Assembly: GCA_963971425.1 (NCBI GenBank)
Contig: OZ020518.1
Location: 12,344,190-12,408,189 of the forward strand
Direction of reading: 5' to 3'
DNA: 64,000 bases
Origin: Bryoerythrophyllum caledonicum
Lineage: Eukaryota; Streptophyta; Bryopsida; Pottiales; Pottiaceae
In this document: in pieces, positions 3,161 to 64,000 of the stretch
How positions within the stretch are numbered: position 1 is the stretch's first letter
Layout: every line of letters begins with the position of its first letter
Translations under genes and position numbers: made by a program
Notes under the pieces: model-generated
Databases searched by the model: none
What the model saw: only the letters and a program-made list of their open reading frames with translations
What the model was told of the DNA's origin: nothing

Positions 3161-3571
3161 GAAAATTGTAAAGCACAGATGCACCCCGTATGTGCTTATG
3201 TACGGACCATGCTCTTATGTTATTTGTGACAATCAATAGACTATTGTCAAATGCCTCTTCTTTTTCAAAACTAGGTTTTCCTTAGTCTTTTTTATCTTTT
3301 ATATATATATGTATCATTTTTTAAATTTTATTTATCTACCTTTTTATAATTTTGTAGCAAAAATTGATAATTTAGTTTGTTTGGATCTCCAATCCTGACT
3401 TGAAGATTGTTATATGGGTTCACTTAAATAAAAACATGTTTTGTTATGAATTCTGTGATACCATATTACAATTATACCTATGTTATGTGTGAAGAATTAA
3501 CCATGAATTATTTTTCCTATTTTAAACTAGATGATGTGATTACAATGATGAACAGGTATTAGTACAGTGCT

Positions 3572-6500: not shown

Positions 6501-7621
6501 TCCAAGACCGCTGGAGTGATGCGCTGAAGCCGTGTGATGCTGACTTATTGGAAAGGTCACCATCCGAGCTGTCGAGACTAGTGCGTTCGTACTTGCCGAA
6601 GGGATGGGGTTTAGTAGCATGTGGCATTTCGACGGCCATCCCTACAATTCTTCAAGGAGAGTTTCTCGGATGTGAGGTCTTTGTTTTTGATGATTCCTCT
6701 GAGAAGACTTCATTTTTGTACGACCACCTGTGCGATACTCTTCAAGGGCGGTTGTTGATTACTGAGAGGGGAGAAAGAAGTAATAGTGCACGGGAATTTG
6801 TACTGGAGACAGAAGAAGTGCCTTCAGAAGAAATGTCAGGGGACAACAAAGAGGATGAAGATATAGGCGGATCTCTTGATATGGATGCATCAGAGGATAT
6901 GGTTCGTTTGGAGGAACAGTCTTTATCTCGAACTCCAAGTTTTGAGAGAAGAGGAGATCGTGAACTTGGATCACAAGATACACCAGTTGGCAGTCCTTTG
7001 ATCCACGAAGGTGTTGTCCATGATGAAGATCAGATAGAGAAGTCACCATCGGAATTGATAGATCATTCTATGCAACTTACAACTGAAGGCACTTCGAGGG
7101 AGACTAATAGGACGCATGTAACAGAGGAGACAATCACTGGTGAAGTGGATGGTGGCTCAATAACTCCACTAGGAGGTGCTTCTCCAACCCGTCCTCATTC
7201 TAGGGGAGAACGCTCAGGAGAAGCATCGGAATTTGTAGTGTATACGAGGATTCGACGACCTAGAAATACTCCTACACTGGAGTCGGATACCGAGGAGGAG
7301 GGCAACGAAATCGGAAATGATGTTGGGGATGTCTTGCCTTCAGTGCATGAATCTAACATTTCGGGAGACAGCATGGCATTTGAAGGAACATATTCTACTG
7401 AACTAGATATGTCGTTCAATGCATTTGATGGATTCTACTACAACCGAGATGGCATAAGGCACAAACAAGAAGGTGAAGCGGGCAACTATACATATGTGGA
7501 GGTTGCATCCATTGCAGTTGGAGATACAACAATTTGTCCAGTGGGAGATGAAGAATTATCTGCCATGGTTGGAAATGTGATGGAACACGCTTGTGGAGGG
7601 GCACCGCTAGATGAAGATTGA
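3572..7621 (+). CDS. Large protein with ParB/DGQHR-like and methyltransferase-like regions, copy 1 (one in-frame stop)
   Basis: One frame stays open for 1,349 codons except a single TAG at 5594-5596 (codon 675), so it is annotated as one unit. Residues ~1-290 carry a unique N-terminal region and a Pro/Ser/Arg-rich linker. A conserved block around 415-520 contains WEPVDGQHIVAACKLA (D451-G-Q-H454), the motif expected of ParB/DGQHR-type folds, with Ile where these families usually have Arg. After the stop, residues ~980-1050 contain SPSELSRLVRSYLP, then GWGLVACGISTAIP, then CEVFVFDD. That order resembles the P-x-EL helix, glycine loop (motif I) and acidic strand end of beta-class N6/N4 DNA methyltransferases. 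The usual DPPY motif is replaced by LLPPG near FLLPPGAFAQ. The C-terminus is acidic and Ser-rich. No introns are seen, unlike copies 2 and 3. The function is unknown. The domain assignment is my inference from three-way comparison. Confidence 0.6.
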
Positions 7622-18355: not shown

Positions 18356-21300
18356 TCATAAAGTTGGCTCTGGCATTGGTATAGGATGTTTTCGTAGATG
18401 CTCTCGAGACCTTAAATCCGCCTGCTCCATCACAAATACAAAGTATCACCAAATGCAACAGTATCCTAGACAAAAAAAAGAAAAATGACAGAAAAAAAAG
18501 GGGAAAAAACTAATAAAAAAACTAGTGATATTTTGGAAGATTAGAAGCTAAATATCTGCAATACTAAAAGATTGAAAAATGGAGTGTTGAGTGCGGAGCT
18601 CACCTGGCGAATAGGCTCAGGAACTCGATGTAGGCAACAGCAGCGAATGACTTCAACAGCCGTGTCCAATGATATGCGATGTCCCACAGAAATGAACACT
18701 GGTTTGGAACATCCATTGTGGCTTCGGAAAGCCTGCCAATCAAACATAAAAAAGAGGGTCAAACACTCTCCAGATGAAGGTTTAATGAGCTACCCCCTGT
18801 TTTGACTACTCTTTCATCACTATAAGTAGGAAGAGCTGGGTGGTCTTCATTCTTCAGTTCAGTCAATGGAAGAGTTTGCATGAGATCTACCCTGATGAAT
18901 ACTATATTGGAGTTTAGAGTTGCTCGTAGTTTTACGATATTGTAAATAGTTAATTGAGATAGATTTTTTGGGGGAAAGTGTAAGGGAAGAAAATGGGGAG
19001 AAAATGGGGAGAGGTAAAAGAGCCACATGTTGCACATGGGAATGGCTAAATCAAAGGATAAGGACCAGCCCACTTGCTTTGACTATACAAAGTCAAAGAT
19101 AAGGTTGGAAAGTCAAGTGGGTGGTGGCAAAGTCTTAGGGGGCGGCCATGAGACCCATGTGGGATGAAGTCACGTGGAAGTTGTTCAAGAAGGCACTAGG
19201 AAGGTGCCAAACACGTGGTACAAGTAAAGGCCTTCGCAAGAAGGCAATATCTCACTCCAACCATTGTTTGCAATACCTTGTGGGTGTATTCTAGCTTGTG
19301 CAATCATTTTTCTACTTCTTCTAATTTCAATAGGTTATGGGCTCACTCATGTGAGTTGCGAGTGTAGAGTTTTGTTGCATTTAGTGTTTGGAGGAGGTCT
19401 TGCGAGGGTTTGAGTGTTCGAGGAGCACGAGGGCTGATTTGGAGCGTTGGAGGAGTCGGAGGGTGTATTTGGAGCATTGGAATGCACAAGGGCTGATTTC
19501 AAGCATTTGAGGTGCTCAAGGTGTCGTTTGGAGCACGCGTGGCGATTGGGGAGTCACAAGGAGTTTGGAAGAACGGCGGTGGTGCACATTGAAGAGTTTG
19601 GGACCTTGTAAGTGTTCAATCATGGTGTATGTGCATATTTGCGCTCTTAAGGTGTTGATTTGAGTGTTTGAGATGCTTAGTATACACATTGGAGTGTAGG
19701 TGAAGCTCTTTGAGATCATTGAAGTCCCTATTTGCATGTATGAGCAAGGAAGGGGCTGATTTGATTGTATGAGCTTAGAAGGGATTCATTTGAGAGCTTT
19801 GAAGTGGATACTTGCAAATTAGAGCCTTGAAGGGGCTGATTTGGGTGTGTGAGGTTGCTTAGTTGTGTACTAGTGCTTGAAAGAGGCATATTTGAGTGTT
19901 TGAGGTGCCTACATGCACTTTGGATTCTTGAAAGGACTCAATTGAGAGATTGAGGTGCATTAGTGCACATTAGAAGCACGTAAGGGCTGATCTTAGCCAT
20001 TAGATTGTCAACATGGCCGCATTTGAGAGTGAGAGTGCTAGGACCATTGACAAGTTCAAAGGTGAGAACTTTAGCCTTTGGAAGTTCAAGATTGAGATGG
20101 TGTTGGAGTCCATGGACCTTTGGGAGATCGTGGAGGGCACCGACGACCCTCCCGCGAAGGAGGACGATCCTATGGTGGTCAAGGACTACAATCGACGTGC
20201 CAAGAAGGCCATGACCGTCATCGGGCTCAATTTGGCGGACAACCAACTTGCCCACATAAGGAGTTGCAAAGGACCCGCGGAAGCATGGAAGACGTTGTGC
20301 AACATCCACAAAACGAAGAGCTTGTCCAACATCCTCTTTATTCGACGTAAGTTCTTTACCATCAAGATGCAAGAAGGTGATGACATGTTAACACACATCA
20401 ACAAAGTGAAGGAACTTGCGGATCAACTTAATTGCTTGGAGGTTCCCATAAGAGATGAAGATATCGTCATGACGTTGCTTGAGAGCTTACCGCCATCATT
20501 TGAGAGCTTGATCACGGCCTTGGAGACATTGAGATTCGAGGACCTTACCATGGAGTTTGTTACCGCAAGAATGATGCACGAAGTGTCGAAACGCAAGGAG
20601 AGGGAGGTTCATGGCGATGATGCGGCCTTGTTTTCAAGGCCAAACAAGGGGGGCAACTCATCATCACGTGGAGAGCCCAAGTTGTGTTACAATTGTGGCA
20701 AATCGGGCCACCTTGCTCGAAATTGTTTCAAGCCAAAGAAGTGGGAGCGCGACAACGCAAACCAAGCGAAAGAGAAGGAGGGTGCCAACCATGCAAAGGA
20801 CAATGATGACTACGCGTTCACAACCCAAGATGGACGTCATTTTAAGTCCATGTGCAAGTGGATCTTGGATTCGGGTGCCACAAAACACATGACACCACAT
20901 AGGGTGGCATTCGACACATACGAGGTAATTCCACCACGCAATGTTCATTTGGGTGATGATAGTGTCGTGAACGCCATTGGAGTTGGGTCTATTGTGGTGG
21001 AAGTGCTTGTTGGAGGGCGTCCAAGGAAGATAACCATCAACGAGGTCCTTCATGTGCCAAAAATGCAAGCAAACTTGCTCTCGGTGAGCAAGCTTGTGTC
21101 GAGTGGATTGAAGGTGCAATTCAAGGTAAATGGGTGTACATTGAAAGCATCGAATGGAGTTGTACTTGTTGTGGCACCGCGTGAAGACAACTTGTACCAA
21201 GTGACCTTTGCAAACGTGCACAAGGCGGATACGGCTAACGTAGCACAATCATCATCGAACAAGGGTGCAATGGAGCTTTGGCATCGTCGACTTGGGCATT

Positions 21301-24300
21301 TGAATGTGAGGAGTGTGCACTTTCTTCAAACCATGGTAAGTGGGATGACCCTCGACAAGGATGACTTGTCTATCTCATTTTGTGAAGGGTGTGTTGAAGG
21401 CAAACAACATAAGACTCCATTTCCAAAGAATGGAGGGACACGTGCCACCAAGCCCTTGGAGATTGTGCATTCGGATGTGTGCGGTCCCATGAGAACGACG
21501 TCTATAGGTGGTGCAAGGTACTTTGTGACCTTCATCGATGACTTTTCAAGGAGGGTGTGGTTATACACATTGAAGACGAAGGGGGAGTGCCTTGAGAAGT
21601 TCAAGGAGTTCAAGGCACTTGCGGAGACTCAATCGGAGCACAAGATCAAGGTGTTTCGGTCCGACAATGGCGGGGAGTTCATGTCCAAGGAATTCGAAGG
21701 TTTTTTGAAGAAGCACGGCATTGAGCGACAACTATCAACACCATACACACCGCAACAAAATGGAGTGGCGGAGCGTGCAAATCGCACCATTGTGGAGATG
21801 GCAAGGAGCATGATTCATGCTCAACGACTCAAGCTCTCGTTTTGGGCGGAAGCGGTGACCAATGCGGTGTACATCCGCAATCGATGTCCAACTCGGGCTC
21901 TTGTCACCAAGACACCGCAAGAGGCTTGGAGTGGCCGCAAGCCATGCATTGCACACATGCGTGTGTTTGGATGCATTGCCTATGCAAAGGTGCCCGATGC
22001 AAGGAGGGGTAAGCTTGATGCAAAAGGTACCAAGTGTTTATTTCTTGGATATTGTGAGGGAACCAAGGCATATCGTCTCATGTGTGTTGAGACGAGGACC
22101 ATCATTAAGAGCCGTGATGTAGTGTTTGATGAGGATAGCACTAGTGTTGCTCACGGTTTGGAGATTAGTCCAAGTGGGAGTAGTGAGACGCCATCGTTGG
22201 TTTTGGTGGACGAATCTTCCAAACCAACTCCCTCAAGTGTGAGTGAAGATGGTGATTGCAAGACGGAGGAGACGGTGATTCATAGGGAAGAAGATTCAAA
22301 CGTACCACCTTCACAAACATCATCACCAAGTGGTGTTGAAGAAGATGGAAGCATTCAAGAGCCTCGATATCCAAGAAGGGAACGGCGACCGCTCGGCGAT
22401 TGGTGGATGAACCACATCTTGCCACAACAAGAAGAAGAGCGCGCCAACGTGGCCGCCCTTGAGGATCCATTGAACTTGTGTGAAGCCATGCGATCCGAGG
22501 ATGCGAGCAAGTGGGAGGCGGCCATGCAAGAGGAGTATGACTCACTTATGACCAATGAGACGTGAGAGTTGACATCCCTTCCAAAGGGTCGCAAGAGCGT
22601 TGGATGCAAGTGGGTATTTCGTACAAAGAAGGATGCTTCTGGAGAAGTTGTGCGCCACAAAGCAAGATTGGTGGCCAAAGGATTCTTGCAAGTTGCAGGA
22701 GTGGACTTCCATGAGACCTTTGCTCCCGTTGCAAAGTTTAACACCATTCGGTGCATCCTTGCGCTTGGAGCGGCGCTCGATTTGGAGATCCATCAAATGG
22801 ACGTGAAGACCGCATTTTTGAATGGCGAGTTGGAGGAGGACATCTATATGAGCCAACCGCAAGGCTTTGAGAAGAAGGACTATGAGCATCTTGTGTGCAA
22901 ACTCAAGAAGTCGTTGTACGGACTCAAGCAATCACCAAGAGCATGGTACCAACGGATCGACTCGTTCTTCATCCAAGAAGGCTTTACAAGAAGTGAAGCG
23001 GATCACTCCTTGTACATCAAGCAAACGGGTGGGTACTTGTTGATAGTGCTCGTCTATGTGGATGACTTGATCATCTTGGCTAGCCTTACGGCAAAGTTGA
23101 CGTGGCTCAAGGGCAAACTCGATGTGGAGTTTGATATGACGGATCTTGGTGAATTGAAGTATTGTCTTGGTGTCGAATTCGTGAGGGACCGCAAGGCACG
23201 CACCATCACCATGAGCCAGAGGAAGTATATTGAGGAGGTGCTCAAGCGCTTCAACATGGAGGAGTGCAAGCCCATAGGTACACCACTTGATGTGAGTGCA
23301 AAGTTAATGAAACTCTCGGAGGAAGAATATGAGAGCATTCAAGGTGAGATGCAAGGTGTACCATACAAGAGTGGAGTTGGGTCGTTGATGTATGCCATGG
23401 TGGCCACACGGGCGGACCTTGCATTTGCGGTAAGCATGGTGAGCCAATTCATGTCTAGGGCTGGTCCGTCACATTGGAGTGCCGTGAAGCGCATCATGCG
23501 GTATTTGCAAGGTACCAAGGACCACAAATTGTGGCTTGGCGGCAAGGACATTGCTTTGAGAGGGTATTGCGATGCGGATTGGGCGGGAGATGCAAACGAG
23601 CGACGGTCAATAACGGGGTATGTATTCTTTGTTGGAGATGGTGCCATCTCGTGGAATTGCAAGAGGCAACCGACCATTGCCTTGTCCACGACAGAGGCGG
23701 AGTACATGGCAACTAGCCAAAGTACAAAGGAGGCTATTTGGCTTCGCAAGCTTTTGGTGGATGTGGGGTTTGTTCAAGAGGGAGCAACCACCATCATGTG
23801 CGACAACCAAGGGTGCATAGCCCTTGCGAAGAACCCCACACACCACTCACGCACAAAGCACATTGATGTGCAACATCACTTCATTCGCGAGAAGTTGGAG
23901 AGTGGAGAGATATGCTTAAAGTATTGCCCAACGGAAGACATGGTGGCGGATGTATTGACGAAGGCACTTGCGAGAGAGCGTCATCAAAGGTTAGCTACCG
24001 CGATGGGATTGCGGGGAGGTAACTACTCGCAAAGTGGGAGTATTGGAGTTTAGAGTTGCTCGTAGTTTTACGATATTGTAAATAGTTAATTGAGATAGAT
24101 TTTTTGGGGGAAAGTATAAGGGAAGAAAATGGGGAGAAAATGGGGAGAGGTAAAAGAGCCACATGTTGCACATGGGAATGGCTAAGTCAAAGGATAAGGA
24201 CCAGCCTACTTGCTTTGACTATACAAAGTCAAAGATAAGGTTGGAAAGTCAAGTGGGTGGTGGCAAAGTCTTAGGGGGCGGCCATGAGACCCATGTGGGA

Positions 24301-25880
24301 TGAAGTCACGTGGAAGTTGTTCAAGAAGGCACTAGGAAGGTGCCAAACACGTGGTACAAGTAAAGGCCTTCACAAGAAGGCAATATCTCACTCCAACCAT
24401 TGTTTGCAATACCTTGTGGGTGTATTCTAGCTTGTGCAATCATTTTTCTACTTCTTCTAATTTCAATATACTAGCAACCTCTCTCCTAGGTTACTTACGA
24501 ACTACTTAGAGGTGAAAAACTTGCAAGAATGGACGTCATGGAATATGGATTTGGCCTCATCATGGGAGCATTAGGTGGATGAGAATTTATTGTTACCATT
24601 CCCCAGATTTGGCCTGTGCTTCCGACGAGGGGCATTCCTCCACCAGCTTGCAAGTTGCTCTCCGACACCACATGCCTCACTTCCTGATTCGTCAAGCCAT
24701 CGATGTGGTGCAGCTGCAAGACGTATGAGCCAATGATTTTGAATGAGGTCGCAACAGAGCAGGAAACAAAAAGCTCGACATGGTAGTAGATGGAACCTGA
24801 AACCCATACGTTTTTGCCAATGCCGATGGTAGGAATGTCCGCCAGCACGCCCAAGTGGCTCGCCAGTCCAAACCCTGATAGTAACCAGAAGGAAAATTCT
24901 TGTGAGTATACATGTGTAGAGATACTAGTACTACTACTACTACTACAAAGAAAAAAGCCAAAAAAATCACCTCTGGGATGGAGAATGCCGTTTCCGTCCA
25001 CCATCAACAACTGCAGCATTTTGTAAAGCCACCCAAACTGTCAATTAGATGCTTCAAAGACTGCATAAATCAATAGAAGAGCTTGCTGGCATCCTTCAAG
25101 TCAGTGGGAGAAGAGTTTATATGAGATGAAATGAATATCAGCCGATTCTCTTTAGAGGTGATTTTGATTGGAAAGGAGAAGGCGTATCTGATGCAAACTT
25201 CAGGTGATTCTATAAACAAGCCTTTTGCAAATCACTAGAAGAAAGCTGACTGGAAGTTTGAGCACCTGAGGGTAAAGAAGAGGCGCCTTTGCTGCCATTT
25301 TCTGAAGAAGGCCAAGGAGCACTGGAGTCTGCAGCAGAATTTCATCACCTCAACAGTACAAAGATTAGGCATGAATCCAACGCAATCAGTCTCAAGATTG
25401 AGGAACAAATACCTCACGGAAGGCGAGAAATCCAGCGACGTAGGGCATGGTGAGGTGCACCATGTCGAAATCCTCGTACACAACCTGCATGCTCTCCAGA
25501 TCCATCACCACCAACGCGCCGCACGCAAACGAGCTGTCCTCCTTGGCGAAGCTCAGATCCACTCCTCCCACATACCGCAGCTTGCTCACGCCAACATCCT
25601 CAGAGACCGAGTCCTCGGAAGCCACCAGGCGCCATGGAAAATCGTCAAACGTCACCAACTTCTCTTTCAACATAGCTTGCTCCCTGATCCAAAAAAACAA
25701 GATGACCCAACGGCAACCTCTGTTTCAACATAAACCCAAATTTGCAATCGCATCCAAAAGCAACCTCTCCTTCGACTTGATCAGCAATCCCGAAACATCA
25801 ATGAAAGCGAGAGAATACCTGATCTATCTCTCGGTCTGGCCTACAGCGTCCTTCTTGACAGCTCGAACCGACTCCTCCAT
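18356..25880 (-). CDS. ENDOV: Endonuclease V, with a Copia element in one intron
   Basis: Eight minus-strand exons: 25880-25819, 25683-25413, 25328-25266, 25010-24971, 24874-24810, 24713-24597, 18732-18604 and 18421-18356. From exon 2 on, all join in frame with GT..AG borders. The family cleaves DNA or RNA next to deaminated adenine (inosine). Visible landmarks are the metal-binding Asp in RYVGGVDLSF, the Glu in AGFLAFRE, the Asp in LLMVDGNGILHPRG, then GFGLASHLGVLADIPTIGIG, LHHIDGL, KPVFISVGHRISLDTAVEV and RVPEPIRQADLRSREHLRKH. Exon 1 (MEESVRAVKKDAVGQTER) runs into a TAG at 25826-25824 just before its donor. This codon is probably a changed CAG, or translation may start within exon 2. Intron 6 is 5,864 bp because a Copia element sits in it, antisense to the gene. 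The gene is divergent from TEL2. Confidence 0.9.
18905..19332 (+). repeat. Copia left LTR
   Basis: 428 bp, TATTGGAG...TTTCAATA, preceded by TACTA. Confidence 0.95.
19390..19990 (+). repeat. Degenerate short repeats in the Copia 5' leader
   Basis: About fifteen loosely related units of 30-45 bp containing GGGCTGATTTGGAGCGTTGG or TTTGAGTGTTTGAGGTGC fill the untranslated leader between the left LTR and the gag ATG. Confidence 0.7.
20013..24053 (+). CDS. Copia gag-pol polyprotein with one nonsense codon
   Basis: A single 1,346-codon frame, interrupted only by TGA at 22563-22565 (codon 851). The context TNET[stop]ELTSLPKGRK corresponds to the usual T-W-E-L-x-x-L-P-K-G-R, so TGG became TGA. Domain order is Copia type. 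Gag comes first, with a CCHC knuckle (CYNCGKSGHLARNC, residues ~224-237). Protease has WILDSGATKHMT (~284). Integrase has the HHCC region from ~424, the first Asp in HSDVCGP (~487), FRSDNGGEF (~548) and QNGVAERAN. Reverse transcriptase has DVKTAFLNGELEEDIYM and YVDDLIILA (~1015). RNase H has DADWAGDANERRSITGYVF and ends near DMVADVLTKAL. The start ATG follows the leader repeats and opens the usual Gag N-terminus (KFKGENFSLWKFKIEMVLES). The copy is autonomous in layout but non-functional unless the stop is read through. Confidence 0.95.
24041..24468 (+). repeat. Copia right LTR
   Basis: 428 bp, TATTGGAG...TTTCAATA, followed by the target duplication TACTA at 24469-24473. Its start overlaps the polyprotein stop region. 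Confidence 0.95.
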
Positions 25881-39875: not shown

Positions 39876-42800
39876 ATGGCAGATAGGTCAGTTTAAAACC
39901 CTGAATTCAATCTGGACCCTAATCTGAAGCCAGTATTCCGTTTCATAAACCCTTAAAAAACCCTAAAACTAATTAACGAGCAGGTGGATGGCACTCACTT
40001 TAGCTCGAGTCGAGCTAAAGTGAGTGAGTTGCAACAATTTCTAAATTATGTTAGATACCATATGTACAGTTCTTCAAAAATTATCCTGCTGGATTTAGCT
40101 CGACTCGAGAATTTAGCTCGAGGTGAGCTAAAACAAAAGCACCAAAAGAACCATTATTTTAAATTTAGCTCGAACAAAGATAAAAAAGAAATAAAAATAA
40201 ATGGTAAACTGAAACATAAAAAAATCTACTTTTTATCTTAAAAATGCTAAGAAAAGAAGTAAAATTCAGCTAAAGACAAAAGAAAAGCCCACATCAACCA
40301 GATCATTAGACGTTATATTTTTCTCCAAACGAGCTTGAGTAAGTGAAATCTAAATAAATACCATTGGTTTAGCTCGAGTCGAGCTAAAAGCTTGAAATTT
40401 GAAGAATTTAGGCCCTATTTAGCTCGACTCGAGCTAAATAATATGTCCATTAGTATGTGTTGGTCGTAACAAACTCCAAAAATATGCCAACTCCAAGCCA
40501 ATCGATGCATATTCATCAATTTAGCTAATCTCGAACTAAAAATCATAACATAGAGAGAATAACAAGTACAAAGAAAATATTTCCCATGCACATGTTGTAA
40601 AGATGGTATCAAGCAAGAGATTTAGCTCGAGTCGAGCTAAATTGACCAAGTTCTATAAAGATTTCATCGCGGCATTCCTTATTATCAGTGAAATTCACGG
40701 AAAAAAACGTCTAATTATGCTTTGCATAGGAATATAACATGGCTCTTAGTAAGCAAATAAAGCTGAATACAATCGTATATAAAGATATAGTTTAGCTCGA
40801 CTTGAGCTAAAAAGGGTAATCCAGAAACAATTTTAAATAGCATCATGTTTGACTCGAATCAAGGTAAACAATGGCTAAAGATCTGATGTTCAGTCGATCA
40901 AGTATCTAACAACCTTGTTTGATTTCCTTCAGTGTTGAGAAGGCCCGCCTCGTCGGCATACTGCAACACTTCTACAAGCAAAGAGAAGTGAATCCCGATG
41001 ATGACGACGACGACGATAGCAACAGACTCGATTGCTGGGAGCTCAAGGATCCAACAAAGGCGACATTGTGGACTACTCTGTGGGCGCCCCACACCGAGAA
41101 CCTTGTCTTCGCCACAAGCTTCACGGGCGAGAGCGCCGACGTAATCAAAATCTTCTGCTCAACCACAAGGCTAGATCCATACCATTTCACGATAGTAATA
41201 GATACTATTAGAACGCCTTGTTCAATATCAAACTGTCTAGTTAGTCTTCAAGGTTCAAACTTTGAAGAAATACACAAAACATTAGAAGATGAAATGATAG
41301 AGAAGAAGTGGCGGACTTCCAAGGACGAAGCTCTAAAGGCCAAGCCACTAGCGAAAAAACTTAGAAATATTGTTGGAGCAATGGGAGTTGCGGCCGCATT
41401 AGAGAGGCAGAAGAACGCATCTATCCGATGTCGCGCTGATGCTTCTGCGCATACAGAAACCGGAAGCCAAGTCATCAGCCAGGCATCCGCCCAAGTTCAG
41501 TCTGCCGGACAACCCATTACGCGGAGCAATCCACGGAAGTCAACTTCCGCTTCGGCATCGCCATCGAAGAAGCGCGCGACGGCAGGCAAAGGAGAAGGCT
41601 CTATGCGGAAGAAGAGCAAACTGGTCTCAGAGGAGGATCTGTCCACCAGCTTGGCTTCTGCAATATCGGAGTTGCCAGCGGCACACCGCTCCGGAGAGGT
41701 CATTGACTACAACAACGTCAATGTAATCTTCCAGAAGTTCTTCACAGAATGCCAGGAAGCCTTTGTCTTTGACGACCCTCGCCAGAAGACGGAGCTAGAT
41801 GTAATGAGGCTGTATAACGCTCCCGAGGCATGGACTATCCGAGCATTTGAACCGAGGGGTATGGAAGATCTGAAGACATATCTGATGAACATGCCGGATA
41901 GATTGCAGAAGCAGACACTCTGCGTCATGCCCAAGCTTGACTTCAAGCCGAAGGATCTCAACGACATGGCTGACTGCGACTTCTACATCATAAATGGCCA
42001 GCATTCCGTCGCCGCATCCAAGTCAATGATCAAAGGCAACGTCCCGGAGACGATTCGCAAGGACTTCCGAACATGGAATTGCTTCATCGTCTGGACCCAG
42101 GACCATGACAAGCTCCGGAAGATTTCCGCCTTCTATAACAGGGTCAATCACCTAACCCCGTTCAAACCGACATAGGCAACCAACATCCTTGGAGCCCGTG
42201 CAGTCTGGGAGAAGTACGGGAGATCGTTGCCAAAGCATGGTGCAGCTGGTGCCACGGATTCAAGAGCCTCTGCGCGCTGACCTCCAGGAAACGACAAGCA
42301 ATTCGAGGTAATTCCTAGCTGGAACTTTGTTTAGCTCGAGTCGAGCTAAATCTCGATAGCAACATTTCTTTCTTTATTCAATTTCTGAGCTAGAGTTCAT
42401 TCAGGCTAACATTCCCACCTTGATTTAGCTCGACTCGAGCTAAGTTGCCAACTAGCCCCCCTTGCACAAACACTAACCTTAATACTTATTCGTTCTGCAG
42501 AAATTCATGGATGCCATCCGCATACGGTTTTCCATGATCGATGTCGCAAAGCACCAGATCGAGCCAGAAGAAAGGGGCCAAGAGCAAGTTGTTGATCCTC
42601 ACGAACGAAGTGAAGATCATCACATCGTCTGACCAAACATTCGACCTCTGGAAAGAGGTCATCTCATGTGTTGCCCGCGGAGATCTCATTGACGTCGACT
42701 CCAAGGACATGGTGAAGTTCAAAGACCACAATAACTTCGAGCCGGAGAAAGACGGAGTGCTGACGCCGGAGTTTTTCAAGTTCATGGGTAATCTGTCGGA

Positions 42801-45800
42801 GGCCGACCACGCCAAGATGTGCTTGCACATATTGAACCGCTCGGGTCCATCAAGGAAGTACAAGCACCCGAAGGTTGTCGTGAAGCAGCCTACGACTGTG
42901 GTCGAAGACTGCTACTCGGTGAAGGAGTGGATCGAATGAAGGAAGCGGAAGGCGACGGCACGCATGCAGTTGCACCTGATTAGGCCAGAACTTGGCCTAT
43001 TTAGGGAGGATGACAAGGAGTACGTGGAGTCTGCATGGAAGAAGTTTAAGAAGGATTTCCATGTGAGTAAGGCGTCCATGCGCATGCTTCTCGACTGGGG
43101 TCCTGGAGATTTGTACTACACGAACGCGCGGCAGACTCAATTCCGAAGAACCTCTTGCGAGGAGTTGTCGCCCTACGCCAAGCGATTCTTCACTGTCTTC
43201 CTCACGCAGCGATCACGCTTCAATCCGCCGAGTGGAGCCTTGTTTTTTCGAGCCTTCAAGAGAAGTCCGATAAGGTTGGGGAATTGGCCTTCGGACTCTT
43301 GGCAAACCATAGGTTGCAGTTCGAAGCTGGGTGTGATCGACTTCCGCAACATTCCAGGCCAGTCCGGGAAGTCAAGGTCTACGGTGGAGAAGCCTTACTT
43401 TGAGGAGTTTTTAAGGCTGCTCTCCACCAAGGGACAGCCCAATCTGGATGAGTTTCCATCGTGGCTTTTTATTTGCGGCGACGACGAAGGATACGCGCAG
43501 GTCGAAGCAATGGCGAAGGCGCCACCATTCGCGGAGTTGTTCGATCTGTATCCGTCGGAGTACGTTCCAGCCCCAAATGAGCGACTTGGTGGTTTCTCGG
43601 CAAAGAGCAAGCTTGCCACGGAGAATGTGCATCTACTCTTCCTCATCAAAAGTGAGATTGACCATCCCCCGCGCGTAAAGAAGGTGTACAGCCCCCCGCA
43701 GCACATTGTATACGAGAAGCCTCGTAAATACAATGAGGTAGAGTATGTAATGTACCCTACCGAGCTGCGGATGGAGTTTTACAACCGCATCCTCAACCTC
43801 TTCTGCAAGCCCGGCAATTCTGTGTTTCAGCTCTTTGCTGGAACAAAGTTACTGACATCCAGCGTGGTAAGTGTTTGTCCACTTTAGCTCGAGTCGAGCT
43901 AAATCCTGTTTGTTTATGCTCTTGATGTTTAGCTTTATATTCATCACCTGAGTCGGCTGGACTTCGTTTAGCTCAATTCGAGCTCAACTTTAATCTATGT
44001 GAAGTTAGATATGTGTTCACTTCCTTTGATGTAGCAATTTACCTCGAATCGAGCTTAACTATTACTCTCTGTATGTGTTGTCAATCTTAGATGTCTTCGC
44101 TGGAATCGTTTATCATCCATGATGAGGATGACGAACAAGATTTTGATGAGGCGGCCGAGCTCGCTTCAACGTTGGATCCCCTCGATTTTGCTATAGACAA
44201 TTATCCCGTTGACGAGCAGAAATATCCACGACTCGGGAAGGCGGTTGCAAAAGGAAAGAGCAGAGCGCGAGAGGAGGACGATGAAGGAGCTGAAGGGGTT
44301 GTCAGCGCGTTCGGTGGTACTCCAAGTTCAAGTACTATCAATCTGGACGATGAGGACTCCGTTGACGAAGCTGTTCTTCTCCCGTGGCAGCGCGAGCAAC
44401 TCCGAAGCCGGGGACGACTCCGCCGTCTTGACTTCCCCGACATTGAAGCGTTGAATATTTCAACGAGACCTTCCTCAGCTCCTTCGGCCTATAGGTCATC
44501 GGGGTGGAGCGGGTCCTCCGCGAAGAGGAGGAAGGTTGCAAGTGCCGACGGGCGTTCTCCACTGGGTAGGCCCGCACCGGAGGATGATCGACTTCGACTG
44601 CTTGAGCTCAAGATTGAGGAGCAGGATTGACATCGACAACAGTTGGAACAACGCTTGAAGGAGCGTGATGACGAGGCCAGGCATCGCGATGAGGAGGCTA
44701 GAGCGATGCAGCAGAAGATGCATGACAACATCATGCACATGTTCTCTTCTATGGGAAATCGACTAGCACAAGTTGGCACTCCCCCCGATGCCCAACCTGC
44801 TCCTACAATCGAAGTGACGCCAGAGGTTTTTCCTTCCTCAGTGTCCGATCATCCTAACATAGCTATGGGAGCCGGTGCTAGTTCATCCCAGCTGAATATT
44901 GTGCTTTCCCCTTCTCCTTCCTCTATGCGTGGTCAGTCATTGAGTCCTACCCGCAGCCCTTCTGCAGCCCCTTCCAGCTCGCCTTCTCGCGCTCAGTCTC
45001 ATGGTGATGTTGCTGAGCCATCATCAGGTTTTTCCCCACCTTAGATTTTTCCCGTTTAAGTGTGAAGTAGTTGAGGTGTTATTATCGGCGAAATACATGT
45101 AAATCACTCTGTACAAAACATTTTTTTGTGTGAATATTACAAGGTTCTTACTGTGACGATTTAGCTCGACTCAAGCTAAACGGGTCAGTTCTTTTGCGGA
45201 CATTTGGATCACGTTTGTCTACAGTTATGTTTCATCTGATTGTCTGTAGCTTGCTTGGTTTCCCCAGATATAAAAATTGGTGATGATGCAAATGATCTGC
45301 CTGTCATGGAAGACATTGTCGACGACCCCGTCCTTGTGGTAAATGACAGTCTTGACTCGTCATTGGTTGTCCCTGTGTCCTCTGCGGCTGTGCCTCAATT
45401 TATCCCAGAGGACCTTGCTGAGGATCAGCTGTCATTGGGATCAATGGGGGTCCAGGAGGGGCCGGAGAACAGCATTGACAATAATCAGGTATTTGTTTTC
45501 TTATTTCTTAAATCACTTTTGATTCCCTGGGTTTTTATTTTCGTACATGTTTATAAGAATGATCATTTTGTATGGAAGTTGTAGTATTGTTATTCGTTTT
45601 CCTGGCTTTTCATAACCCGGTTTCTGAAGCATTGGTAGGAGGTGTAAGTGATAGAGAGGAAATAGATCGTGTCCCGTCACATTTCTCGGGCACTTGGTTA
45701 AATGTTGTGCTCGATCTCAATGGAATCATCTGCGCATGCGTTCCCGCTTGGAAGGCCAAGGGATTCAGAAATTTTGACATCCGTGTGCATTCCGCTTCGA

Positions 45801-47430
45801 TGCCAACCGAAGTAGGCCAGAAGCTTGTGTGGGTGCGGCCTGGCTGTGCTGACTTCCTGTCGCAGTTGTCGTCGTTTGCCACTATCACTGTCTGGAGTTC
45901 GATGATGACATCGACAACCTCGGCCATATGTAATTATCTTTTTGGTCCTATTGATCCAATTAGACTAATCAGAATCCTAGGTCAGGAACATTGCGATAGA
46001 GCTCCGGTTCGCAAGGAGGGTAACCGAACATTCTACATGAAGAAACTCGGCACTCAGAAGGATATCTTTCTGAAGACTTTGTCCAAACATCTTTTTAATA
46101 GTTTTGGTGGTCTTTATACCGAGGGTAATACTCTCATCATTGACGATAGTCCAATTAAGCACATGCTTAATTTGTCCGAGAACGTTCTTCTACTTCCTAG
46201 TTGGTCATACGAAGATGTTGGTGCTGAAGACGATTGTGTTCTAATGAGGGAATTGCTGCCGTATCTTTCGGGCCTTCACCAGTATCGGGAAGGGCTTGCG
46301 ATGTATCGATCCTGTCACCTCGCTGGGCGGGTCATGTTCTATGATGATCATGAAACATCTGATCAGTATGTTTTGATCCAAAATGCAATTAAGAGTTCGG
46401 AGAGTAGGTCCCGTTCATCTCGTAGGACTCCCTTATGAAAGCAGACTTGGATGTTTTCACATTGAGACAGATATACTGTAATTTCTACGATTTTTCTTTG
46501 TAAAAGTTGTTGGATTAATATGATGCGTATTATTTTTCAAACTTTTTTGAGTTCTAGGTTTTGTATATATTAGTTTCCACTGATTTTGTAGCTTGGAATG
46601 GCATTTTAGTGATCCGACATGATTTTTAGGCATCCTCTTTCTCTGATAATCTGCAGGGCTACGGTTGTCGAGCATCGTTGGATTCATTGATGAATGTTGC
46701 GGATTATGCCCCTTCCCTTCGAAGTAGCGGGGTATTATTGCACTCTGTTGTTACCGCGCAGTCTACCATGGATTATTCAACGATGGCTGTAGATGAGGGA
46801 GTTGTTGACAGTCCTGTCAACATGGCGCCAAATCATGAAAGGATGAATTCGGTCTCTCCTACTTGGCCTCGTTCCATTCCGCAATCTCCTCGTGCAGTCG
46901 AGGAGGGTAGTGCTCCCACCAGACGTGCTCTTTATGACAGCACAAATGATGCTAACTTGATTGTTCCTATGAAGGTTTGGGTCAACCCTCTTATCCTTGA
47001 AGTGATTTGTGTTTTATTTCTGCATGCGGTTGATTTTGCAGTGGTCAAATTGATAAATGCTTTTGTTTAGCATCGTTCGAACTAAGATGTGGTCTTTTAG
47101 ATTAGCTCTGATCGAGCTAACCTATTACTCGTGATCTTTAGTTTGAGAGGTTTAGCTCGAACGCCCTAAAGTGAGTGAAGTTCCGATGCTGTGCAGGGGT
47201 GCTCTTCAACTCCTCGGCAACATCGCAGTCGAACAAAAAGTCTTGGTGGAAAGTCGTCGACCGTGACGGGATCTCGCCCCCACTCGCTTCCTAAGACATA
47301 CCAAGACGACCAAATTAGGCTAAGGTTGCAGCGTCTTCTCGACAGCCCATTGATGCAACAGAATGATTCGGCATGGACACGTCAGCGACAGCGGGCATTC
47401 ATTAAGTCTCGTATTGAGGCTTTACGATAA
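39876..47430 (+). CDS. ParB/DGQHR-like, methyltransferase-like and FCP1-phosphatase multidomain protein, copy 2
   Basis: Exons inferred from borders and frame: 39876-39886 (MAD + AG), 40933-42307, 42501-43866, 44091-45027, 45250-45488, ~45659-46438, then likely 46657-46974 and 47197-47430 (TAA). Exon 2 contains DFYIINGQHSVAASKSMIKG (NGQH codons at 41993-42004), aligned with copies 1 and 3. Exon 3 ends with MYPTELRMEFYNRILNLFCK then PGNSVFQLFAGT, very like the P-x-EL helix and motif I (DPFxGSG) of beta-class DNA methyltransferases; the intron falls right after. Exon 4 encodes a charged coiled coil (HRQQLEQRLKERDDEARHRD). Exon 6 encodes an FCP1/NLI-type HAD domain: VVLDLNGIICA (second Asp of DxD is Asn), KLVWVRPGCADFL, ITVWSSMMTS, TLIIDDSPIKHML. 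Defects: TAG 42173, TGA 42278, TGA 42937, TGA 44628 and a frame change near 42575. Function unknown; probably a decaying gene. Confidence 0.6.
39992..47171. repeat. Family of 19 dispersed 21-bp palindromes, intron-restricted
   Basis: Consensus TTTAGCTCGA-(G or C)-TCGAGCTAAA. Perfect copies: 39999-40019, 40368-40388, 40418-40438, 40621-40641, 42330-42350, 43883-43903. One to several mismatches or half-sites: 40094-40114, 40112-40132, 40164-40184, 40520-40540, 40791-40811, 40848-40868, 42424-42444, 43967-43987, 44038-44058, 45160-45180, 47066-47086, 47101-47121, 47151-47170. The first copy lies in a longer palindrome of 35 bp (39992-40026, arms CACTCACTTTAGCTCGA), and the last copy is followed by the same GTGAGTG. 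All lie inside inferred introns 1, 2, 3, 4 and 7 of copy 2; none lies in an exon or elsewhere in the window. Confidence 0.95.
45659..46438 (+). CDS. FCP1/NLI-type HAD phosphatase domain exon of copy 2
   Basis: This exon alone encodes a full FCP1-homology domain of ~240 residues. Motif 1 is LDLNG (family norm DxDxT/V), motif 2 is TVWSS and motif 3 is LIIDDSP. WVRPGCADFLSQLSS is the diagnostic region of plant CTD-phosphatase-like proteins, which dephosphorylate phosphoserine or phosphothreonine. With the second motif-1 Asp replaced by Asn, acid/base catalysis would be impaired. Some plant members share this LDLNG form, so loss is not proof of a dead gene. The exon itself has no stop. Its fusion to the upstream exons is inferred from a phase-0 join (donor at 45489, acceptor AGAGAG|GAA at 45659). 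It could instead be a separate gene starting at the ATG at 45572. Confidence 0.7.
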   Translation, partial: EIDRVPSHFSGTWLNVVLDLNGIICACVPAWKAKGFRNFDIRVHSASMPTEVGQKLVWVRPGCADFLSQLSSFATITVWSSMMTSTTSAICNYLFGPIDPIRLIRILGQEHCDRAPVRKEGNRTFYMKKLGTQKDIFLKTLSKHLFNSFGGLYTEGNTLIIDDSPIKHMLNLSENVLLLPSWSYEDVGAEDDCVLMRELLPYLSGLHQYREGLAMYRSCHLAGRVMFYDDHETSDQYVLIQNAIKSSESRSRSSRRTPL

Positions 47431-47732: not shown

Positions 47733-50700
47733 CTAGAATTTCCCAAAATCATGGAATTTTCCGAATATATCGAATACGGTGTTTACAGCAGGGGGAGGAC
47801 CATCACGTGAACTTTGAGCTGCACCCACTCCAGTTGTGTTGATTGGAAGAGGTGGAACTTGCTGGCCAGGCGTCGGCGGGTCGCCGACAACGTCGTTAGG
47901 TGCCACGGGTCGAGGATGAACAAACGACGACACAGAGCGCGATACGACTTCAAGGAGGGGCCGCTCATTCAGCGGAATCAAAATGTGAGTCACTGACGTA
48001 CTGGCGGTTGATACGTTGATTTGGACTGTGGATACAGGGAGGCCTGTCCTAAGACGGTCGTCGATATCATCATGTTGCACACCAGCAACGACAGCGGTAG
48101 CCTCCATTGCAATCTCAGCAGCCTCCTCCATGGTGATGTCCTCAAGGTGATCTTTGTCGTAAACATTGTTGACATTGTCCTCGATGTTCTCCTCATCCGC
48201 CTCTTCGACTACCTGTTCTTGATCCACAGCGGGAGCGGAAGTGGCAGGATCGGCTGCCGCTCCAATTGCTGGAACGGGACTGCAACGCGGCAAGAACGCC
48301 ATACCGCGAACGCGATCGTGCGCATTTGCAACCTCCGATTCCTCTTGCACGAACTCGACCACAGTTGCGTTGTGTCTTTGCAGAATCATCCAAAAGATAG
48401 ATAAGCTGATGCCACAAATTTCATTGGCGGGCAGCCGACGAAGTCAGTCAACACAAAATAAGGAAAAACCAAAGAGGAAACATAAGTGGGTCTTAAGAGA
48501 AGCTTGATTACCAGTGCCACTGCTGTCACGTTGCCGCCACCCCAAGCATTGACGACAGTGACAGGGTCGCTGCCCCTCAGAGCCGGCCCCAATACGGACA
48601 TGAGCAAACCAATGCTGGGATGGCAGTCATCTCCGGACCAGTTTTCTGTAGAGGGCTCGGCGGCGACGGAATAGATCGGATGCAAAGGGCCTTTGAGTCC
48701 TGTGACCTCGAGGAACCTATCCAATCGCTCTGCTGGACGGTCAGGCTTTGTATAGACGATTCCGACAAATACTGAAGGGCTCGCATCCAAGTCAGATGGC
48801 GTAAAGCGACTTTCTGGATCCGGAAGATACCGGATCGTGTGGACCGCCACGTCCGATTTCCTGCAACAGAACTGAGTCTCAAGCTCAAAGTTCGACTTAT
48901 TGTTGCCAATGAAAATGCAGGGAGCAAATAACTCCTTTGCATCTCCCTCACCACGAAGCACTTTCTCAGCAACAGCCTCAAAGCCGCTCTTTTTGCAGAC
49001 GGTCGCCACTCCGTTAGGCCAGAAGTCGAACACAACTAACACCTCCCTCGCCTCTTTCTGAAGAAGAAACGCACCGCCTTTGTCTATGGCCTTGACGACA
49101 TCTTCAAGTGTCCTTCCAACTTTGACGTCGAAGCGGACAGTAAGATGCTCCGCTGATTCGCTTGAGATGGCAGTGAACTTCTTCAACACCGCGTGGTATT
49201 CCGCTGGAGGTGGGTCAGTAGTTGAAGTAATGCCGTTGTACCTCGAGGAAAGATACTTCTTGCCACCTTCAGTTTGTAGTAGCTCCCGCCGTATGTTCCT
49301 GATCGTGTCGTTGGTAAGCTTCCATTCGACAGCAATCTCTTTGTACTCCTCGTCCTTCCAAGGCACATAGTCGGCTTGTCCGGGCTTGATAAGCGGGTGG
49401 TTTCGGAACTGCAGCATGAGCTCGTTCTTGATAATATAATCCATTTTCTTGCCCTAGCACCAGCTCTTCAAGGAAATTCCGTCCGCGGTCTTCTCGCGAG
49501 ACCCAATCACCTTCAAGAACACCTTGCAGTCCAGGATCTCTTGAGCTAACTTCATGCATTCATGATCGCGTAGCCCAATAATGAACTGCAAGTCGGTCTG
49601 CGTCAGATCAAGCTTCGGACGCTTCAGGATGGTCATTGGCAACTTTCCGTCTTCCATGATTAATTTGCCTTGATCCCAACGGTCAAACACTTCCTGCCAC
49701 TTGTTGTAAAGGTCGTCGGGAACATCAACGAGGGGCAGCTTCCAGGTCTTCGCAGCCTTGTCCTTGGCAAGAATTGGACTAAGGTAGTCTGAAACAAAGT
49801 TCTGCAGAATGCAATGAAGGAAGTGAACTGAGAACAAAGTAGAAGCCGTCGGCTGCCAGCCGATAAAGAAGTGGTCATGAATAGTGAAGGGAAGAAACAA
49901 GAGGAGGAACGAAGGGAACCATTCCTTCCATCTCTTGAGATCAGTCCTCCTATCGATTCGACCATGCTCAATCCACCTCGCTCGCATCAACTGAAGCTGC
50001 CCGTGAAATTGGGCCTCCGCTTTCTTGTCCGCAATTTCAATATTCAGCAGATTGGAGATCTTGACGAGGTTTTCACTGTCAGTAGACCAAACCGGGATGA
50101 CATCGTAGTTGAGAAAATAATTTGCCCTATCCGACCCGAGTTCCTCTTCGTTCCCAAGTTGCTGACAAACAGCATACGTATGTTGTCCGCCAATAATGTA
50201 CCAGTGGGTCCCTTAATGCTAGGTACGACAAGGTCCATCCCATACAAAGGGAAGCCTGTGACAGGGTTAATCAGACTTGGTTTCCCTTGTAGTGGAATGC
50301 AGTAAAGCTCCGGTATTTTGCGCCAAGGACCGAGTCCCTTGTAGAACAAGACGAGCTGCTCACTGCGCCTTGGAATCATGTCACGGTACTTCATCGACGC
50401 AGGCGCAATGTGAATGCGGTCCTCCGGAATCTTTTCACAAAGAGCCTGCTGCCCGAATGGATAACACTCCTCGAGCGTCCTGTACATTTGGTCCAGTTCA
50501 GTGTCCTTCGTTTTCACTGAGAGCTGGTTGGCGAAGGTCAGCGCCTCTGCAACTGATTTGATCTTTGACTCCTTCTTCGACACCCGCTTCTTTGCAACCT
50601 TTATCGAAGACTCCCCCGTGTCCGGAGTTTCGGTGAAATCGATAAGAACCAGACCGCTGGCGCCCTTTCTTGCCCTTGGCTTATTTCTTGGAGCAGGCTT

Positions 50701-51012
50701 CTGAACAGGTTGCTTCGCGTTCTCCAAGTCCCCAAACTCTTTTGCCTGCTTGAAGCAAAGCATGAGGTCTTCCCGGTCGTCAGGACTTCCGGACACGAAC
50801 TGCAGGTCTATATCGTGCGCATCTTCACAGAGCTCGTGGACGCACAGCACGACGGGAAGTCGGACCGCAACAATTTCGGGGTCCTCGTCCGCCATGTTCC
50901 TCTTCACCGTAATGAGGAGTACAACAAAGAAGGCTTCATTGGGCTCTTCCTTCATATCCATCACTAAGACCAAGTTCCCCCCCGTCAAGGTGTTCGCGTT
51001 GAGCCTCGCCAC
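47733..51012 (-). pseudogene. ParB/DGQHR-like and methyltransferase-like protein, copy 3
   Basis: Minus strand. An N-terminal frame (51012 to ~50200) encodes a variable region with a basic linker and reaches GFPLYGMDLVVPSIKG. The reading frame then changes between 50212 and 50192. The new frame gives WYIIGGQHTYAVCQQLGNEE (GGQH at 50191-50180) and VIPVWSTDSENLVKISNLLN, matching copy 2. It runs to TAG at 49456-49454, then continues in frame from 49444. The C-terminal part contains CHPSIGLLMSVLGPALRG then VVNAWGGGNVTAVAL, the methyltransferase motif I region. An intron (48511-48406) follows at the same place as in copy 2. The last exon (48405-47733) includes MILQRHNATVVEFVQEESEV, placed like the acidic strand end after motif I, then an acidic Pro-rich tail. 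Phases at this intron do not match exactly. Frame change plus stop suggest a decayed copy. Confidence 0.6.
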
Positions 51013-51770
51013 AATTCCGAACTTACATGGTACGCCCTACCGCCAAGGAAGACCCCATGCAATGATGGTCCCGGATGGTTCGAATGTCGAGCGCGGCTAA
51101 ATCTCTTCCGGCCAACCCATCTCCTTATTGGGGACACTATTGCCACAGAGCCACCTGATGGCCCGCGGGAGTATGAAATATTATCAGAACACAGTAAGGG
51201 ACAAGCGAATGGATATGATTTCATCAATGATTCAAACCATGATTCTACGTCGTCAGCTGCCAGTCGACAATTAACATCGACCAGTACTACCGAAGATAAA
51301 TGTCCAATAACACGCACAGAAGTGGTGATGATTTCCCAGTTCGTCGGCGGGCAGCATAGTTTCTACTTCCAGCATCCGACTCGATTGGCAGTTGGACAAC
51401 AAATTGAACAGTTACACCTACGCGAAAGTAATGAAGACAGTCCGGTGGATCTCGTATTGTGACTCTATGAACTGACAGCGGACACTATATGTACATGCGT
51501 TTGCTGCAAAACAGTCAGAGTTGTCTATGCCGACATCCTGCCAGTGTCATGACGGCATGACGCGTCGTGTCGTGACGTTCCTCCTGGTCACGACATAATA
51601 GGGTCAACGTAGGGTTTAGGTCGGTCTTTACCCCTATGCAGGGTGATTTAGTTACCTTGGTGTCAACGTGGCCATCCTAGGTGGCAACTTAATCCTACGT
51701 GGAGACCATCGCTTTTACTAGTGGTGAAGAGATGTTACTCCTTCAGTAAACCGCTCGTGGGCGCGGACTG
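51013..51770. other. No gene recognised
   Basis: Upstream of copy 3. May contain its promoter and leader exons on the minus strand, but none is recognisable. Confidence 0.35.
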
Positions 51771-62262: not shown

Positions 62263-62594
62263 TTTTGTCAACCATCGCGGCAGTATACTATATATAATAT
62301 TTTGTTATACTTATGTAAAAAAATTCAAAAAAATACAAAACTTCAAAAAACCAACAATTATTATTCCTTTATAATAATATATTTAAATACTACACCAAAA
62401 ACCAAAACAAACAAGAAAAAAATCCTAAAAACAAACAAAAATATGCAGTATATTTCTATGTTACATTAAAAGACAAAAACAAAACACAAACAAAACATAA
62501 GAAAAAAAACAAAACAAACAACTTAACACATAAAATCAACAATCCCCATATAATTAAAATATATATACCTCAATACACATTTGACACATCAAAC

Positions 62595-64000
62595 CTCCTT
62601 CACAGATGTGGAGACATCGAACAAAACCCAGGCCCGATGCCTAATCTCTTCAAAACACATCCACCACTACATCAACGTCGAGCAAAAATATATTTTATTC
62701 CTAGCACCATTAAATTACACCTTAAATATCAACATTTGGTACAATCTTTTGTACCTTTCTTTAAACCAAACCATGACCAATATGACGAACAAAGCCGTAA
62801 ACTTCCCTATCTAAATAGCTATATAAATAGCTTAAATCAATACATAGTTCCTTATATTTTATATGCTATCGTCATCACTACACACCCATCACTAGTGACT
62901 TGCAATAATATCCTTTCAAATTTAGATAACATAACACTACTGCAAAAGTTGACCTCACTCGAAAATATCCCTGAGAGACACATTCACATATCACATCCTT
63001 ATACAAACTTTCAAAATGACTTCAATCACAACCTTACAAATAAATCCTCAATCCATAAAGAATTATATGACTTTTTACACACTAAAATACCAACCTCTAC
63101 ACTTGAAAGCCTTAAAGATAGATTTCCTTATTTGCCTGAACACCTGTTGGTTGAAACTTATCACATTTTTGAACCTATACTAGAATATTCACATCCCCCT
63201 CCTCTCCCTCCTATTGCATCCACATCACACACCACAGATACTGACAGTCTACAAACCTACATAATTATCTAAAATACTTCTCACCTCAACACTTCCCTCC
63301 TAAACATTCAAAATATGCTTCTTAATACCTTAATCACCCCTACAATTATAAATATCCAAGAAACAAAATTAACCACCAAGAAATCTACTAAATATATTTC
63401 AAACTTGTTTCCAAACTATAAACTCATTTTTAACAATACACATGCGCTTACAAGGTGTATTCAACGTAGAATTCCATATACTTCTGCTAGAAGAGGCATT
63501 ATGACCATGATACATAACAAATATGTATTCCCTGGTAACATCTCAAAGATTCCAATGCCAGCCTCAATTTCACCATATCTTCAATAATACGAATAGCAAA
63601 TCAACCATTACAACCTTGGTTAATCCTAAACATATACATGCCTACACATTCGGAAGACCTTAGACTCATCAATTTTATCAAAGACACTATTTCCGCCACC
63701 CTTAACAGCCACCAAAATCATGTACATCTATTATGCGGCGACTTTAATAGAGACATTTACCTCATTGGCCGTACAATAGACAACATACATACCAATCCAA
63801 CAAATGACGATATACAATGGAAATTAGTCACCACAAATATCAATCTCACCTACATTCCCACAAATACATCTAATTCAAGACAAGAAGGCCTCAATTATTC
63901 TACCACTAGCCTCATTGACGGATTCTACATAAACACTTCTAACCAACAAGACATGACATCAACTACTGATACCACCCTAAACCTTAATTCAAACCGCTAT
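62595..64000 (+). pseudogene. LINE ORF2 with N-terminal 2A motif and AP-type endonuclease (cut by window end)
   Basis: Codons 62595-62639 encode LLHRCGDIEQNPGP-M, matching the 2A ribosome-skipping signature (D-x-E-x-N-P-G-P), in frame with the open frame at 62637-63272. After ~210 residues, and a TAA at 63270, the same frame resumes with SLLNIQNMLLNTL and TIINIQETKL, the start of an APE-type endonuclease (the Glu of QETK). After TAA 63585 and a frame change it continues as NIYMPTHSEDL, LLCGDFNRDIYLIGRTID (Asp and Asn of GDFN) and SLIDGFYI. The reverse transcriptase would follow beyond the window. The several lesions show the copy is inactive. Confidence 0.75.

Follow-up and report, generated by a model that had tools for sequence, protein, structure and literature searches.

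Why should a 21-bp palindrome recur throughout the introns of one gene? This question is raised by a 64-kb window (the whole stretch of DNA analysed here, positions 12344190-12408189 of Bryoerythrophyllum caledonicum contig OZ020518.1, C6 in our genome search), in which a gene termed copy 2 carries repeated sites of the form TTTAGCTCGA-N-TCGAGCTAAA, with a free centre base. We find that copy 2 is a degenerate member of a DNA transposon family encoding a protein with a ParB fold and a methyltransferase fold, and that the palindromes are shared across this family, lying in the non-coding parts of the transposon. They are real and strong and look functional, and we consider it fairly likely (probability about 0.6) that they are parS-like recognition sites of the transposon's own ParB protein.

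An initial annotation had reported nineteen palindromes (six perfect, thirteen changed) in introns 1, 2, 3, 4 and 7, with none in exons or elsewhere in the window. Our scan returned the same number at up to six mismatches, all 19 lying within copy 2 (39888-47200) and six being perfect apart from the centre base; the weakest few may differ between the two counts, the three sites with five to six mismatches (40094, 40318 and 47066) being individually unsure. A half-site at 47151 exceeds six mismatches and, to judge from where the cluster had been said to end, was probably counted in the initial annotation. The 19 sites are distributed as 11, 2, 3, 1 and 2 over introns 1, 2, 3, 4 and 7, and none falls in an exon, introns and exons being predicted from splice signals and homology. 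Twelve window sites, all at 39999-45180, have no more than three mismatches (0.01 expected from shuffles), while a threshold of seven mismatches adds four sites, all outside copy 2.

Across the whole genome (437 Mb, 894 contigs) the palindrome occurs 3,707 times exactly, and 12,832 times when up to two mismatches are allowed. For the reversed pattern the corresponding counts are zero and one, and a control palindrome with two letters per arm exchanged gave none genome-wide. An even distribution without any link to the gene had been named beforehand as the outcome that would speak against a bond between the two. Instead, among the 61 distinct exact places listed, all on contig C1, the 50 whose DNA was examined all lie within the span of a ~19.7-kb transposon that carries the ParB gene, 45 inside aligned blocks and five between blocks (one place, C1:240600, was counted within the element span on a fragment that is 89% identical). 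A search of viral_contigs returned no palindrome match and no confirmed relative.

Nine copies or fragments of this element (A-I) were compared. Copy A spans ~19.7 kb, and blocks longer than 600 bp are 72-95% identical among copies. An inverted repeat of ~29 bp starting AACACCATATT is present at both ends of copies A and E, and both copies with the two ends in hand show a 4-bp target site duplication (CCTA/CCTA in A, TATG/TATG in E), which is the rule for Sola1 transposons. One strand carries a ParB-methyltransferase-phosphatase gene and the other a DUF7869 exon (PF25273, E 8e-31), a putative Sola1 transposase. Copy 2 matches the element gene exon by exon, with 49% identity in the ParB part and 61% in the phosphatase part, and a decayed terminal inverted repeat of the family lies directly downstream of it (47744..47785, - strand). 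Several in-frame stops and a frame change in its exons mark copy 2 as an old, broken family member. The transposase remains in the window amount to a single match of 39 residues, ~25 kb from copy 2. Since the locus is a transposon remnant, a host gene with regulatory introns was ruled out. An NLI/FCP1-like phosphatase domain stands beside the ParB-methyltransferase gene in both copy 2 (45639-46403) and copy A (L005:2548-3186, - strand).

Long element copies hold 27-30 palindromes each. Over 13 loci (164,495 bp) we counted 276 sites with up to three mismatches to the clade motif, none of them wholly inside homology-defined coding sequence (57,972 bp), where an even spread would give 97; copy I was left out. 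Given the kinship of the copies, the sites do not count as independent events, and inserts of this sort would be poorly tolerated in coding sequence anyway. Nine of the 276 touch the coding edge, at points where the query extended into intron 3. Confinement to introns holds in copy 2 but not in the family, where sites also occur in the intergenic stretch and close to the right transposon end. Sites stand singly in small introns and form arrays with a 52-53-bp step in intron 1, a step that we infer to be about five helical turns; further arrays, with a 47-bp step, lie upstream of a plus-strand open reading frame (ORF) on the transposase side.

Conservation of these sites was read from intron 3, where copy 2 agrees with each of seven relatives at 49-52 of 56 palindrome columns (~90%) and at 81-87 of 161-163 other columns (~52%), the palindrome columns being defined from the relatives only and copy C, whose acceptor was not matched, being left out. 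The three intron-3 palindromes occupy aligned places in all eight aligned sequences. A tiny palindromic mobile unit (MITE-like), one of the explanations first offered, is ruled out by these fixed positions, and the suggested comparison of loci for the presence or absence of single palindromes reveals no such difference in intron 3. Between the close copies A and F the palindromes show no extra conservation (0.90 vs 0.92 elsewhere), and between the more distant A and L039 they do (0.92 vs 0.74), the pattern that constraint on the lineage, with drift of single copies, would produce. In a separate comparison of nine pairs, three were dropped, all saturated.

An exact translated palindrome was found in 13 of 79 relatives of the ParB exon (shuffle mean 0.0) and in 21 of 105 relatives of the methyltransferase exon (shuffle mean 0.005). 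These relatives are predicted proteins from other contigs; many of them run on into intron sequence, and some may come from the window's own species. Such translated palindromes adjoin introns 2 and 3 and, once (P0058), intron 1. Related ParB clades in the same genome have variant palindromes that are still mostly symmetric: TTCAGCTCGA-N-TCGAGCTGAA in L038 and L040 (the TTCAG clade), ATCAGCTC-N5-GAGCTGAT in L026 and L029-L031, GGTC forms mixed with GCTC in L027, L028 and L033-L035, and mixed forms in L036 and L037. Arm positions 3 and 19 differ together, being T/A in 224 of 243 cases in the main family and C/G in 21 of 30 in the TTCAG clade. When eight motif classes are placed on a ParB tree of 38 rows, seven changes suffice, the fewest possible (shuffled mean 21.4), with rows (18 loci and 20 of the 79 proteins) and motif labels chosen by the analyst, protein letters inferred from translated tails, mixed loci taking the label of the sites that follow the ParB exon, L032 and L035 left out of the 12-locus set, and two motif classes not forming single clades. 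In L027, L028 and L033-L035, GCTC lies mostly upstream of the ParB exon and GGTC mostly downstream. Small unplaced contigs (for example C63, C147, C569 and C591), which may be unplaced repeats or possibly foreign DNA, carry the ParB matches that differ most from copy 2.

The encoded protein was assigned by structure. Comparison of the fold of homolog P0001 identified a ParB CTPase-domain fold, which fold comparison alone detected, as no ParB hit was obtained by sequence in Pfam, PDB sequences or PHROGs. Among 24 aligned relatives the residues I-N-G-Q-H-S show little or no variation. A helical region follows in exon 3, with no match to a known fold assigned, and then a domain with a Rossmann-type methyltransferase fold (homolog P0081), in which D285-F286-R287, G452 and K454 (GxK) are invariant over 29 aligned relatives. 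This domain is probably a non-catalytic DNA-binding or partner domain.

In copy 2 itself, all on the + strand, the layout is as follows. Predicted exon 1 (39876..39886, ATGGCAGATAG, a splice landmark with its start read from the sequence) precedes predicted intron 1 (39887..40932), located by splice signals, with palindromes at 39999, 40094, 40112, 40164, 40318, 40368, 40418, 40520, 40621, 40791 and 40848. Exon 2 (40933..42307), delimited by homologs, encodes an N-terminal domain and the ParB-fold domain (IINGQHSVAAS), and is broken by in-frame stops. Predicted intron 2 (42308..42500) has a perfect palindrome at 42330 and another at 42424; relatives show translated palindromes at this same end of the exon, and splice signals support the intron. 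Exon 3 (42501..43866), drawn from homologs and alignment, encodes the helical region and the methyltransferase-fold domain and contains an in-frame stop and a frame change. In predicted intron 3 (43867..44090) palindromes at 43883 (perfect), 43967 and 44038 align with those of relatives. Exon 4 (44091..45027, by homology) is charged and serine-rich, with one in-frame stop, and is followed by predicted intron 4 (45028..45267, splice signals; palindrome at 45160). Exon 6 (45639..46403) encodes the NIF/FCP1-like phosphatase domain (PF03031, E 4.6e-16 on ORF 45563-46438). Predicted intron 7 (46975..47196, splice signals) holds the decayed palindromes 47066 and 47101 and the half-site 47151, and the predicted last exon (47197..47430, splice landmarks) runs up to a TAA.

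Two more window genes show a ParB-like GQH motif when read by eye, at 3563-7621 (+, VDGQHIVAACK) and 47733-51036 (-, IIGGQHTYAVCQ); neither matched copy 2 by tblastn. The window also holds F-box, TELO2 and TIP49 genes, a Copia element and TTTAGGG-type repeats, a content that suggests a land-plant-like nuclear genome. The Copia element (18905-24468) is a recent insertion, as its 428-bp terminal repeats are 99.07% identical. An ORF at 62319-63272 (+) encodes a 2A-like peptide (GDIEQNPGP) and is presumably derived from a retroelement.

What, then, would the palindromes do? A dimer of the element's ParB-methyltransferase protein would bind them, and sites scattered in such number, arrayed in intron 1 and on the transposase side and single in other introns or between genes, could let the protein mark or coat its own element specifically. 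By analogy with VANC proteins, the likely use would be protection against host silencing, or control of the element's two genes. The initial interpretation is partly supported, its idea of a parS-like cluster recognised by the gene's own product standing at the likelihood given above. A more elaborate version seems doubtful to us: a eukaryotic ParB/parS-type system in which ParB nucleates on dozens of phased palindromes, spreads, and shields the element from host DNA methylation and silencing, the dead methyltransferase domain serving as a second DNA-reading arm and site and protein co-evolving clade by clade.

Several observations weigh against recognition by the ParB protein. For neither model (ParB or methyltransferase) did Foldseek return a match at E 0.001 or better, and no DNA-binding domain for the palindrome was identified. 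The nucleotide motif of ParB is GERR; Box II (the P motif) here lacks the conserved arginine and reads GQHS. In the sections of the published work used here, a Box II R to A mutation abolished nucleotide binding (PMC12704722). The beta-class amino-methyltransferase motifs, [DNS]PP[YFW] (motif IV) and FxGxG (motif I), are both altered here; together with the altered ParB motif, this makes clamp sliding and methylation doubtful. The two other GQH-motif genes of the window have no recurring palindromes (arms of 8, up to one mismatch). Two half-site types coexist in one gene in L027, L028 and L033-L035, and flank pairs beyond the 21 bp also match symmetrically, more than a dimer site of fixed size calls for. 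Linkage of gene and sites alone could produce the match between motif and tree, and would do so equally for the transposase. With linkage and template switching as alternatives, the match supports co-evolution and does not prove it. We infer both the binding of the palindromes by the ParB protein and its purpose.

The matching flanks are CAC/GTG or CAG/CTG in the main family; in copy 2 the first site alone is much extended. In the TTCAG clade many palindromes reach ~33 bp (TGCATA-TTCAGCTCGANTCGAGCTGAA-TATGCA).

Other readers of the sites, or none, were considered. The palindromes could be bound by the transposase or another element protein, like the internal repeats of other DNA transposons; the DUF7869 transposase-like exon in the same element, two weak sites (three mismatches) ~600-670 bp from the right end of copy A and the same tree match predicted by linkage would fit. 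We nevertheless hold this to be unlikely, since the sites spread over most of ~20 kb and are densest in intron 1 of the ParB gene rather than at the ends, and copy 2 retains palindromes and ParB gene with only its short, remote transposase match. A ParB protein is, moreover, the typical reader of dispersed palindromes. A host transcription or chromatin factor whose sites the element exploits might account for the dense arrays in intron 1 and upstream of the transposase-side ORF, yet one genome holds several motif variants, each with its ParB clade, and none of the 50 examined exact places is away from the element; we give this little credence.

The functional form could also be an RNA hairpin or DNA cruciform, for instance in splicing, as had been suggested for RNA hairpins. 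Complementarity past 21 bp in family copies, with different but matching flanks, agrees with this, but no sense-strand wobble bias is seen (19 G.T vs 23 A.C among 1,560 pairs in 156 sites) and many sites lie outside the ParB gene, which leaves hairpins quite improbable. Equally improbable is that the palindromes have no function and spread by tandem duplication, their symmetry kept by template switching: the 52-53-bp and 47-bp tandem arrays, the symmetric flanks and the lack of extra conservation between copies A and F are all compatible with it, whereas the motif is kept at aligned intron-3 places while the rest of the intron stands at ~52% identity, and relatives have it at introns 2 and 3, with one exact case at intron 1.

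Known systems offer partial parallels, described here from the sections of the cited works that we used. Sola1-1_Ec32 of Ectocarpus is a 21.5-kb DNA transposon with a ParB and DNA methyltransferase gene opposite the transposase, and its authors propose that this protein binds and modifies its own element (PMC12477816). The present element resembles it and other algal transposons in giant size, in the ParB-like and methyltransferase domains and in their strand; it differs in its land-plant-like genome, its candidate palindromic sites and a methyltransferase domain without the canonical motif, and the sections used name no binding site for the algal proteins (PMC12477816). The closest working model, by analogy, is VANC of Arabidopsis VANDAL elements, which binds short repeated motifs in introns, intergenic parts and termini of its own element; these motifs form tandem repeats and change between related elements, and anti-silencing was shown for VANC (PMC5735166). 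Here, too, an element-encoded protein goes with motif arrays in non-coding parts, and from one related element to another motif and protein differ together. VANC21, in contrast, has a 9-base motif (YAGTATTAY) and belongs to another transposon type, with no ParB fold described in those sections (PMC5735166). With ParB/parS and KorB/OB the element has in common the ParB fold and palindromic sites, and the KorB operator TTTAGCGGCTAAA shares the half-site TTTAGC (PMC11790492, PMC5577506); here, however, the site is 21 bp or longer and Box II is not conserved, and the TTTAGC likeness is a weak lead that may be chance because the KorA operator fits the half-site too. Volvox organelle palindromic repeats are short, abundant and thought to be selfish (PMC2670323), whereas the present palindromes are found at fixed positions of a nuclear transposon, together with a ParB gene. 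We found no description of the 21-bp motif in the titles and abstract openings of the literature searched.

A candidate binding site, with 3,707 exact copies, can thus now be offered for ParB-methyltransferase transposon proteins, and with its clade-specific variants the protein-DNA code lends itself to testing in simple binding assays. If the ParB protein does read these palindromes, VANC-like self-recognition would extend to a ParB-fold protein, which could serve as a sequence-specific epigenome tool.

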